Shown here piece after piece: positions 36,608 to 38,365 of a stretch of DNA of 64,000 nucleotides. The stretch comes from Photobacterium profundum SS9 (GTDB lineage: Bacteria; Pseudomonadota; Gammaproteobacteria; Enterobacterales; Vibrionaceae). Made by a program: the position numbers and the translations under genes. Within the stretch, counting starts at the first letter, position 1. Each line of letters opens with the position of its first letter. The notes below the pieces were generated by a model. The model was not told the DNA's origin. It ran no database searches and saw only the letters and a program-made list of their open reading frames with translations. The DNA is taken from assembly GCF_000196255.1 (NCBI RefSeq), contig NC_006371.1, positions 248,001-312,000 on the forward strand, written 5' to 3'.

Positions 36608-36638
36608 TCGTCTTTTTCCAGTTTTGTTCGTCTTATAG
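36608..36638 (+). promoter_or_regulatory. Duplicated promoter-like motif, copy 1
   Basis: TCGTCTTTTTC (36608-36618), 9 bases, TCGTCTTATA (36628-36637). The same two blocks with the same 9-base spacing recur at 37588-37617 upstream of the GST gene. The CGTC core resembles the -10 element of many ECF-sigma promoters. The motif lies about 45 bp before the ferredoxin start, a normal promoter distance. It is probably recognised by the sigma factor encoded in the module. Confidence 0.68.
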
Positions 36639-36682
36639 TCAAAGCTATTAATTTGCCCATTGACGACCCGAGAAACTCAATA

Positions 36683-37018
36683 ATGAAACTATTTTCACTT
36701 GCATCAATCAAAATCGATAACCAAAAGTCCCTCATCAGCCTAGAAGATAAAAATTTGGTCGATGTAGCCGAAAAACTGAAAATCAATATCCCAGCACCTT
36801 GCCTCAAAAATAAACGTAAAGATGGTTGCTGCAAAGCCTGCTTAGTCGAAGTCGATGGCAAGCGAAGCTATGCTTGCACAACGAAGCCTATAGCTGGCAT
36901 GAAGGTAACCGTGCGTACGAAAGAACTGGATAGAATTAGAAAAGAGTCATTAAAAGAGTTTAAGAGTCAGGTTCGAGCGGGAGCATCATCGCCTTGTCAG
37001 TGTTCAGGCTCTTGCTAG
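36683..37018 (+). CDS. Small [2Fe-2S] ferredoxin-fold protein with cysteine-rich tail
   Basis: This is a protein of about 111 aa. The core resembles the N-terminal 2Fe-2S domain of NuoG and hydrogenase or dehydrogenase subunits: a small beta-grasp fold with Cys40, Cys49/Cys50, Cys53 and Cys65 (APCLKNKRKDGCCKACLVEV, then YACTTKP). The C-terminus has a second cysteine cluster, PCQCSGSC, outside the fold. The ATG at 36683 is preferred over the upstream in-frame TTG at 36653. It is the first gene of a three-gene module with a SigZ-type sigma factor and a GST-like protein, both also cysteine-tailed. It may carry electrons or act as a redox/metal sensor; that is inference. Confidence 0.75.
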   Translation: MKLFSLASIKIDNQKSLISLEDKNLVDVAEKLKINIPAPCLKNKRKDGCCKACLVEVDGKRSYACTTKPIAGMKVTVRTKELDRIRKESLKEFKSQVRAGASSPCQCSGSC

Positions 37019-37038
37019 CAAATTTTAGGAGATCACCG

Positions 37039-37581
37039 ATGAAGCTTGAAGACGTTTGGTCTGCTTATCGAAGTCAATTGAAAGCATTTTTACACTCAAA
37101 AGTTTCAAATTCAGCGGATGTTGAAGATTTACTCCAAGAAATATTAATTAAAACGCACAATAGCCTTGGTAGTCTTCAAAAGGGAGACAGTATTCAATCG
37201 TGGCTGTTTCAAATCGCAAACAGAACAACGATTGATTTCTATAGAGAAAAAGGTCGTACCAAAGAGTTAGAGGCGGAAGAACTTTGGTTTGGAAAAAGGG
37301 AGGAAAATATCAAAGCTGACCTTTCTCCCTGCATTGAACCATTTTTAAAAGCATTACCTGATGATATGGCGCATCTATTGCGTGCCATTGATTTAGAGGG
37401 ACAATCCCCAAAAGCCTATGCTCAGGAATTAGGACTCAGTTACACCACGCTCAAATCCAGAGTAAAAAAGGGAAGAACAGCATTAAGAGGGTTATTTGAA
37501 GGGTGCTGCCACTACAGTTTAGATCAGCATGGGAGCTTGATTGATTTTGACCAAAAATCGAATAAATGCAAAAAGTGCTAA
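37039..37581 (+). CDS. sigZ: SigZ-type ECF RNA polymerase sigma factor with cysteine tail
   Basis: This is a 180-aa sigma-70 family (ECF-size) factor. Region 2 lies at about 5-75 (SADVEDLLQEILIKTHN, QSWLFQIANRTTIDFYREKG) and region 4 at about 105-160 (KAYAQELGLSYTTLKSRVKKGRTALRGL). The C-terminus extends past region 4 with GCCHYSLDQHG and a terminal CKKC, a possible metal or disulfide switch that could replace a separate anti-sigma factor. AGGAGA sets the ATG at 37039. It starts 20 bp after the ferredoxin gene. Two copies of a CGTC-containing motif flank it and are its likely promoters. Confidence 0.86.
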   Translation: MKLEDVWSAYRSQLKAFLHSKVSNSADVEDLLQEILIKTHNSLGSLQKGDSIQSWLFQIANRTTIDFYREKGRTKELEAEELWFGKREENIKADLSPCIEPFLKALPDDMAHLLRAIDLEGQSPKAYAQELGLSYTTLKSRVKKGRTALRGLFEGCCHYSLDQHGSLIDFDQKSNKCKKC

Positions 37582-37587
37582 ATAATT

Positions 37588-37617
37588 TCGTCTTTTTCGT
37601 TCCTCCTTCGTCTTATA
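37588..37617 (+). promoter_or_regulatory. Duplicated promoter-like motif, copy 2
   Basis: TCGTCTTTTTC (37588-37598), 9 bases, TCGTCTTATA (37608-37617). Both blocks are identical to those at 36608-36637, while the 9-base spacer differs, which suggests selection on the blocks. The motif ends about 35 bp before the GST start codon. Confidence 0.68.
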
Positions 37618-37651
37618 TAGGAAACTCATTCACGATAAAAAGGCTTAAAAA

Positions 37652-38365
37652 ATGTTGAAAGTAGTTAGCTATGTAATCTGTCCATTTGTCCAACGTATTA
37701 CGGGTTTACTTGAAGCAAAGGGGGTCCCTTATGACATCGAATACATTAGCCTTAAGGATAAACCGAAATGGTTTCTCGACATTGCACCTAACGCTCAAGT
37801 GCCACTGTTGATCACAGAAGATAGTATTCCATTATCTGAGTCGGATGCTATTGCTGAATATCTAGATGATGAATTCCCATTGCTTAGACCAGAGATAAAC
37901 AAGTCAGCTTGCCGAGCACGACAGAGAGCTTGGGTTTATCAAGGCACTAAGCTTTACCTTAAACAGTGCAGTCATATGCAAAGTGGCAACCAACAAATTT
38001 TTGAAGAACGCCAAGAATTCATGCGTAAACAGTTTGCTAAGGTTGAAAGCTTTCTCAAAGGTCACACTAATACCCAATATTTCTGCGCCGATATTCTAGG
38101 TAACATAGATATGGCTTGGTTGCCTTTATTCCACCGTGCTGCGCTGGTTCAGAAGTATTCTGGTACTAAATTGTTTGAAGGGTTTCCACTTTTACAAATT
38201 TGGGCCGATAACATAATGGCTACAGGTATTGCTGAAAAAACTGTTCATGATAGTTTTGAAGACAGTTTCGTTAACTTCTACTTAAGTGAAAAAACTTATC
38301 TTGGTAGTGGAAACACAACTAAGGATTGCGACTGCTGTGGTTCATCTAGCTCTTGCTGTGGCTAG
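37652..38365 (+). CDS. Glutathione S-transferase-like protein with cysteine-rich tail
   Basis: This is a 237-aa protein of the thioredoxin-fold GST superfamily. The N-domain has an omega-type active-site motif (VICPFVQR, with the catalytic Cys) and the cis-Pro/glutathione contact APNAQVPLLI, then LSESDAIAEYLDDEFP. The C-domain is helical (about 85-215). A tail not found in ordinary GSTs follows: KDCDCCGSSSSCCG, with five cysteines in the last 13 residues, suited to binding a soft metal or to thiol chemistry. Its own promoter-like motif matches the one before the ferredoxin gene, so it belongs to the same predicted regulon as the sigma factor. Confidence 0.85.
   Translation: MLKVVSYVICPFVQRITGLLEAKGVPYDIEYISLKDKPKWFLDIAPNAQVPLLITEDSIPLSESDAIAEYLDDEFPLLRPEINKSACRARQRAWVYQGTKLYLKQCSHMQSGNQQIFEERQEFMRKQFAKVESFLKGHTNTQYFCADILGNIDMAWLPLFHRAALVQKYSGTKLFEGFPLLQIWADNIMATGIAEKTVHDSFEDSFVNFYLSEKTYLGSGNTTKDCDCCGSSSSCCG

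Follow-up and report, generated by a model that had tools for sequence, protein, structure and literature searches.

A sigma factor module with a repeated motif

How is an extracytoplasmic function (ECF) sigma factor governed when no anti-sigma-like protein is encoded among its immediate neighbours, and which genes does it switch on? The question is raised by a three-gene module of Photobacterium profundum SS9 (NC_006371.1, positions 248,001 to 312,000), within a stretch of 64,000 nucleotides that we call the window and in whose own numbering positions are given. An original prediction made from this DNA alone had described three consecutive genes, for a NuoG-like [2Fe-2S] protein, a SigZ-type ECF sigma factor and an omega-type glutathione S-transferase (GST), with no adjacent anti-sigma gene; profile matches (PF13510, NF007215, and PF13409 with GSTO1) bear out the three assignments, and the neighbours of sigZ agree with the last point. 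Comparison with related genomes leads us to propose that SigZ of the window's clade is probably a single-protein switch for a regulon of glutathione metabolism and thiophile detoxification, acting from a promoter of its own. The features concerned are:

36608..36637, plus strand: promoter-like motif 1, TCGTCTTTTTC-N9-TCGTCTTATA, ahead of the ferredoxin-sigZ pair
36683..37018, plus strand: [2Fe-2S] ferredoxin-like protein of the NuoG/HydA type, 111 amino acids; Fer2_4 (PF13510); ends in PCQCSGSC
37039..37581, plus strand: ECF sigma factor SigZ, 180 amino acids; NF007215; tail GCCHY...CKKC
37588..37617, plus strand: promoter-like motif 2, TCGTCTTTTTC-N9-TCGTCTTATA, ahead of the GST gene
37652..38365, plus strand: omega-like GST, 237 amino acids; PF13409; CPF motif; cysteine tail CDCCGSSSSCCG

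The ferredoxin-like protein, for which cluster binding is predicted only, scores 28.5 bits against Fer2_4 (gathering cut-off 22.8), and SigZ reaches 251 bits against NF007215 (cut-off 212) and 231 against TIGR02959 (cut-off 169). The solved chains nearest to the GST are mainly of omega-class GSTO1, a GSTO1 chain being the best of them (E 2e-16), and the omega-class CPF with its active-site cysteine is present in VICPFVQR; enzyme activity is predicted only. Since just 20 bases separate the ferredoxin stop codon from the SigZ start, these two genes probably form one transcription unit, and the GST gene is preceded by its own copy of the motif. All three proteins carry the cysteine-rich ends originally described as lying outside their folds; this location does not hold for SigZ, whose tail falls inside the NF007215 model (residues 1-180).

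The motif has exactly two matches in the 6,403,280-base genome, both in the window, and its reversed pattern has none; a chance origin of the pair was rejected on the strength of these two exact copies in 6.4 Mb against 0 for the control. When up to two mismatches were allowed in the core, the whole genome gave 12 matches and the reversed control 19, a chance level that leaves no further credible site, and a one-mismatch site at position 112019 of contig C3 was rejected because the first frame on its strand begins 325 nucleotides (nt) away and has 69 codons. The end of the 28-base core lies 47 nt from the start codon of the ferredoxin gene and 36 nt from that of the GST gene. Over all examined sites the consensus is TTCGTCTTTTT-N10-TCGTCTTA, and the 100 different spacers among them mark the spacer as unconstrained, in line with the original prediction, which had the motif occurring exactly twice with a free spacer.

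The first block of the motif looks like the -35 element and the second like the -10 element of a SigZ promoter, and we infer that SigZ itself reads it. At 80 of 102 sites a long frame in one orientation starts no more than 70 nt downstream, at 62 of these after 27-43 nt, and the A/T-rich tracts upstream of the first block may be read as resembling UP elements. Common ECF promoters carry AAC in the -35 block, and its absence from TCGTCTTTTT speaks against the assignment. At both window sites the second block, TCGTCTTATA, contains CGTC, described in the available text of PMC3426412 as the usual ECF -10; in relatives CGTC is set by the search pattern (TCGTCTT-N13-TCGTCTTA, the core used for all relative genomes and exact unless stated) and hence is no separate evidence there.

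A further point against a promoter is that the same seven bases, TCGTCTT, open both blocks, 20 base pairs (bp) or about two helical turns apart from start to start, which also suits a direct-repeat binding site. The motif would then be the operator of a regulator encoded elsewhere, overlapping ordinary promoters, and SigZ would be a mere co-member of its regulon. We consider this quite improbable, given that the short distance to the start at most sites leaves little room for a separate promoter, that no sigma-70-like promoter was found on the plus strand of the window at 36340-38600, and that the second block holds the ECF -10 just cited.

Co-occurrence of the motif with SigZ

Among 296 genomes of the same family, where a match of E up to 1e-38 was taken as a close SigZ, the exact core is present in 108 and its reversed control in 1. 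The distribution follows SigZ: the core occurs in 100 of the 129 genomes with a close SigZ versus 8 of the 167 without (Fisher P 7e-42, uncorrected for ancestry; this and the following tests were run on hand-copied genome lists), and in none of the 17 family genomes whose only SigZ-like factors are distant ones. For the order beyond this family, a sample of genomes shows it in 16 of the 31 that match SigZ at E up to 1e-59 and in 0 of the 241 that do not (P 1e-17, again uncorrected for ancestry), the reversed control appearing in 2 of 295 genomes. A phylum sample of 398 genomes (reversed control in 2) added a sole motif genome outside the order; it belongs to another class, and in it a SigZ scoring over the cut-off, the motif and a cysteine-tailed GST stand in a row. 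A tree of 101 SigZ proteins resolves into two deep clades with support 100/100; that of the window comprises 90 rows, 68 of them from motif-bearing genomes, and the second has 11 rows, of which two (G348 and G425) come from such genomes. The SigZ of the window clusters with proteins that come from other families and from another class.

The GST gene follows a similar distribution, being present in 102 of the 296 family genomes, 100 of which have SigZ; the other two have an interrupted or incomplete GST. In 80 SigZ loci of the family, hand-selected from the 129 genomes with a close SigZ, a GST homologue lies near sigZ, upstream or downstream, in 37, and the core precedes the GST in all 37 (29 exact, 8 with one mismatch; within 80 nt in 34), as would be expected from the prediction that the motif is conserved upstream of orthologous genes. 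We nevertheless rejected the possibility that the motif is a by-product of GST ancestry, as it precedes unrelated genes (below) and tracks SigZ in GST-less family genomes, occurring in 17 of 29 with SigZ versus 7 of 165 without (P 1e-11). That it spans several families with a free spacer likewise argues against simple inheritance.

Several observations weigh against so close a pairing of motif and SigZ. The core is absent from 29 of the 129 genomes that have a close SigZ; a GST is present in 17 of these 29 and missing from 12, and eight of the 17 have a one-mismatch site ahead of a nearby GST. Eight family genomes have the motif but no close SigZ. Outside the family, G425 has the motif although its sole SigZ match falls in the other deep clade (G348, also represented in that clade, has a further SigZ match of 227 bits), and in G446, among the 16 order genomes, the SigZ match is interrupted by an in-frame stop. 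The three-gene set is seldom seen together in relatives: the ferredoxin adjoins sigZ in no more than 2 of the 80 family loci, and there in another order. A search of genome contigs with the single SigZ protein returned one locus, in Shewanella sairae; a SigZ is also annotated by name in Aliivibrio fischeri MJ11.

Losses in relatives offer a natural experiment that has its limits. In G099, a genome of the same genus, the ferredoxin-sigZ pair is gone (L292, 1351-1450) through a break within the shared TCGTCTTTTTC, where the match to the window passes straight from the first motif to the second, leaving one hybrid promoter whose -10 block carries a single change; the GST there is incomplete. In G226, which has no close SigZ either, two stops break the GST and the glutathione synthase frame is shortened. 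Against a simple rule by which GST decay accompanies SigZ loss, G138 has SigZ and a truncated GST nonetheless, and G154 has no close SigZ yet retains a full-length synthase frame behind the motif.

A probable dispersed glutathione regulon

Which genes stand behind the motif was counted at 112 distinct exact sites in loci fetched for SigZ or for the motif, the motif loci being 30 from the listed sites and the first 60 of 66 hand-picked to avoid repeated spacers. The first matched gene within 420 nt downstream was taken, and gene families were assigned by profiling representatives only. A GST, usually cysteine-tailed, leads at 62 sites, followed by a eukaryotic-type glutathione synthase (9), ferredoxin (9), a PatB-type C-S lyase (8), glutamate-cysteine ligase (6), rlmJ (5), sigZ itself (3), ArsH (2) and an ArsK-like transporter of the major facilitator superfamily (1). 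These nine families, mostly thiol or arsenic related, account for 105 of the 112 sites; the other seven, which count against a coherent regulon, lead to a rhodanese, a sulfite-oxidase-like gene, a YheO-like regulator 305 nt off, no near same-strand gene (three sites) and a contig end. Representatives matched TIGR01434 (glutamate-cysteine ligase), TIGR04350 (PatB) and TIGR02690 (ArsH, over the cut-off), while for the glutathione synthase the match was to PF03917, with TIGR01986 best but under its cut-off. A glutathione reductase (NF004776) lies behind rlmJ in L151, the sole locus profiled for it, and in L165 and L194 rlmJ is followed by frames of equal length; an ATP-binding cassette half-transporter follows glutamate-cysteine ligase in L171 and L195.

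Because many SigZ genomes without a GST still carry the motif elsewhere, it appears to mark a dispersed regulon of glutathione genes; in the genome of the window only the two local sites of this regulon are seen. The thiol-protection part of the regulon originally predicted from two promoters is thus supported, and in relatives the regulon is larger than two genes. Taken together, promoter and regulon have strong comparative support. We hypothesize that SigZ directs RNA polymerase to promoters with TCGTCTTTT(T) as -35 and TCGTCTTA as -10, 20 bp apart from start to start, and so would turn on glutathione synthesis, recycling and use: in the window its own ferredoxin-sigZ operon and the cysteine-tailed omega-like GST, and in relatives also gshA, the eukaryotic-type glutathione synthase, rlmJ-gor, PatB, ArsH and exporters. 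The presence of sigZ itself behind the site at 3 of 112 would equally suit an operator that belongs to another regulator; against that operator, the site tracks SigZ across families and into another class, and the only recurrent sigZ-adjacent regulator profiled, an ArsR-type gene, occurs in 27 of the 80 loci.

In one genome (G255, L199/L200) two motif sites 3 kb apart lead the rhodanese, a regulator-like gene, a second ECF sigma gene and the sulfite-oxidase-like gene, possibly as a sulfur-stress branch.

Invariant cysteines in SigZ

Beyond the immediate neighbourhood in the window, no anti-sigma factor was recognised by eye in the 40 largest neighbour clusters of the 80 family loci, clusters that were not profiled for it, and attention falls on the cysteines of SigZ itself. 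By Pfam bounds C98 lies between sigma2 and sigma4 and C156-C157 after sigma4, with C177 and C180 terminal. An alignment of 224 sequences combined the top 120 of 1558 database hits with the 101 proteins of the tree and with those of Priestia, Rhodococcus and Shewanella sairae, some proteins being duplicated between sources. In it C98, C156 and C157 are present in all 224, C177 in 202 and C180 in 218; the Priestia protein keeps the first three and is missing the terminal cysteines. Like the motif, the genes behind it and its co-occurrence with SigZ, these invariant positions are read directly from the sequence; that they sense, and what they sense, we infer. The likely sensor is C98 with C156-C157 rather than the terminal CxxC, so that the original proposal of a sigma factor controlled by its own cysteines is retained with its site moved, and with genomic context favouring arsenicals as the thiophile. 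Self-sensing may work as follows: C98 together with C156-C157 would either capture a thiophilic toxicant, for which a trivalent arsenical is the likeliest candidate, or undergo oxidation, and each event would shift the seating of sigma2 and sigma4, gating SigZ without an anti-sigma factor. In one Vibrio clade an upstream ArsR-type repressor could add a second, transcriptional gate.

The cysteines might instead be structural, for example a constitutive zinc site, with the amount of SigZ, set by an ArsR-type repressor or by autoregulation, as the sole control on its activity. In 27 of the 80 family loci the gene directly upstream of sigZ is of the ArsR type and ends in ECC-x4-C (one representative profiled), in 20 of them behind a palindrome of the form ATTTCGA-N6-TCGAAAT (10 exact), and candidate autoregulatory motif sites stand ahead of sigZ, all of which would suit control by amount. 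We nonetheless consider it unlikely. The other 53 loci have no such gene (the screen for linked repressors covered the ArsR-type gene only), and the grouping of SigZ across families and a class suggests a small travelling unit, which favours a built-in gate. Furthermore, the nearest analogue, CorE, does not switch on its target when overproduced without copper, according to PMC3107203.

Candidate signals

If SigZ senses through these cysteines, trivalent arsenicals are favoured as its signal by the ArsR-type gene ahead of sigZ in 27 of 80 loci, and more broadly by that gene together with ArsH, the ArsK-like exporter and the omega-like GST. Human GSTO1 reduces methylarsonate, and marine surroundings hold organic arsenic. 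We regard arsenicals as the first choice, at somewhat below an even chance, with broader thiol stress about as likely. A more specific version, which we put forward tentatively, is that trivalent arsenicals would be held by three thiolates, those of C98, C156 and C157, and that this site would bring sigma2 and sigma4 into the active pose, making SigZ at once sensor and sigma factor for an inducible glutathione pathway (a gshA paralogue plus the eukaryotic-type glutathione synthase), some of whose enzymes would bear sacrificial cysteine tails. The ArsR-type gene offers a parallel, as its C-terminal CC-x4-C resembles the site of AfArsR, where, in the sections available of PMC11868830, As(III) is bound through Cys95, Cys96 and Cys102; SpArsR, which has no third cysteine, is there described as responding to methylarsenite and not to As(III).

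Other evidence would fit a different input to the same SigZ regulon, and we give close to an even chance to the signal being general thiol or electrophile/redox stress (disulfide, polysulfide, reactive carbonyl) or another soft metal. The core targets, namely glutathione synthesis and use, PatB and rlmJ-gor, fit any thiol stress, and the rhodanese and sulfite-oxidase-like genes of G255 lie behind motif sites. An ArsP/SO_0444-type permease (cluster C4) is found near the ArsR-sigZ pair on the opposite strand in 20 loci, and the one profiled (L047, 2796-3902, sigZ-oriented), which has a long cysteine-rich loop, falls under all family cut-offs with its best score to a Cu/Zn exporter family. The low scores of this permease leave the support for an arsenic signal indirect, as do the small number of motif sites, two, that lead to ArsH, the score of the ArsK-like transporter under its family cut-off, and the finding of no ars gene beside sigZ in the window. 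In favour of arsenic over these other signals stand ArsH over its cut-off and the ArsK-like exporter behind motif sites, and the likeness of the ArsR-type gene to AfArsR.

Cysteine tails and flanking genes

The presence of tails in orthologues, a further expectation of the original prediction, was seen in most: of the 39 GST frames lying close to sigZ in the loci examined, 38 have at least three cysteines in the last 20 residues, and GSTs unlinked to sigZ have them less often. That the tails are special to this cluster was rejected, since the SigZ tail belongs to the family model and, among 120 listed GST homologues out of 336 found, 107 have CC within the last six residues. In one Vibrio clade the motif-linked GSTs (e.g. 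L146, L152, L166 and L190) have no cysteine tail, and of the PatB proteins behind the motif some have a tail and others none; these cases count against a role of the tails in every target, and make them common but not required. In two loci (L062, 3986-4885, and L105, 5596-6450, both sigZ-oriented) the GST tails have grown into metallothionein-like runs with many CC pairs.

Around the module, no Rfam match was found at 35500-39500. A small gene at 38538-38915 (minus strand) matches glyoxalase PF00903 and, weakly, Fos thiol-transferase models, and another at 35965-36339 (plus strand) is without a Pfam or NCBIfam match. A DCC1-like thiol-disulfide oxidoreductase (PF04134) is encoded at 39517-40050 (plus strand), 1.1 kb past the GST gene and without the motif. 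At 34766-35679 (minus strand) a PAS/GGDEF-like protein was recognised by eye in two overlapping frames of 170 and 133 amino acids with their junction at 35167, possibly a frameshifted diguanylate cyclase.

Comparison with known systems

In titles and abstract openings, a partial coverage with subscription papers mostly outside it, we found nothing on the regulon of SigZ, or on control of an arsenic response or of glutathione synthesis by an ECF sigma factor; nor was any experiment on these genes found there, which must be set against our proposal. The nearest titles concern a periplasmic glutathione peroxidase of Shewanella that depends on an ECF factor (PMC4336711) and sigma-F in heavy-metal stress of Caulobacter (PMC3511200). 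What we propose as new is that an ECF sigma factor combines a candidate cysteine sensor of its own with a new promoter and a regulon for glutathione, whereby one SigZ clade gains a promoter sequence, a list of targets and a predicted site of sensing. If this is true, glutathione supply in marine bacteria joins the processes under ECF sigma control, and sensing through a sigma factor's own cysteines extends beyond CorE; a SigZ-type promoter could also serve as a biosensor.

The window protein belongs to the SigZ family (NF007215 / TIGR02959, named after Bacillus subtilis SigZ) and shares C98, C156 and C157 with Priestia and Rhodococcus. The B. subtilis member is given no function in the table part of a 2023 review (PMC10141391), and the promoter and regulon proposed here concern one deep clade only. 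The predicted promoter is comparable to that of ECF41 (TGTCACA-n16-CGTC, from the part of PMC3426412 available), which is also bipartite, with a -10 of CGTC and an atypical, GTC-bearing -35; the SigZ motif differs in its -35, in having TCGTCTT in both blocks, in a slightly shorter spacing and in its targets. With AfArsR and SpArsR the likeness is one of cysteine arrangement, a triad (CC plus C) or a pair, and it extends both to the SigZ cysteines and to the ArsR-type gene of the Vibrio clade, although AfArsR and SpArsR are repressors.

The closest parallel in mode of control is CorE of Myxococcus xanthus, and SigZ may, by analogy, work in a CorE-like manner. CorE is described, in the accessible parts of PMC8999054 and PMC3107203, as metal-dependent, with no anti-sigma factor found and with cysteines both in the linker between sigma2 and sigma4 and in an extension at the C-terminus, an arrangement shared by CorE2 (both formerly ECF44); ECF287 and ECF288 have been suggested to be CorE-like for their cysteine-rich tails (PMC8999054). 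CorE-like proteins combine a CXC linker motif with a cysteine-rich domain and respond to copper, or to cadmium and zinc. As the CXC linker motif is absent from SigZ, we do not file it as CorE-like: SigZ has a single linker cysteine (C98 in LSPCIEPF), a short C-terminal tail with four cysteines, CC-x19-CxxC, and, unlike CorE, a predicted regulon of glutathione.

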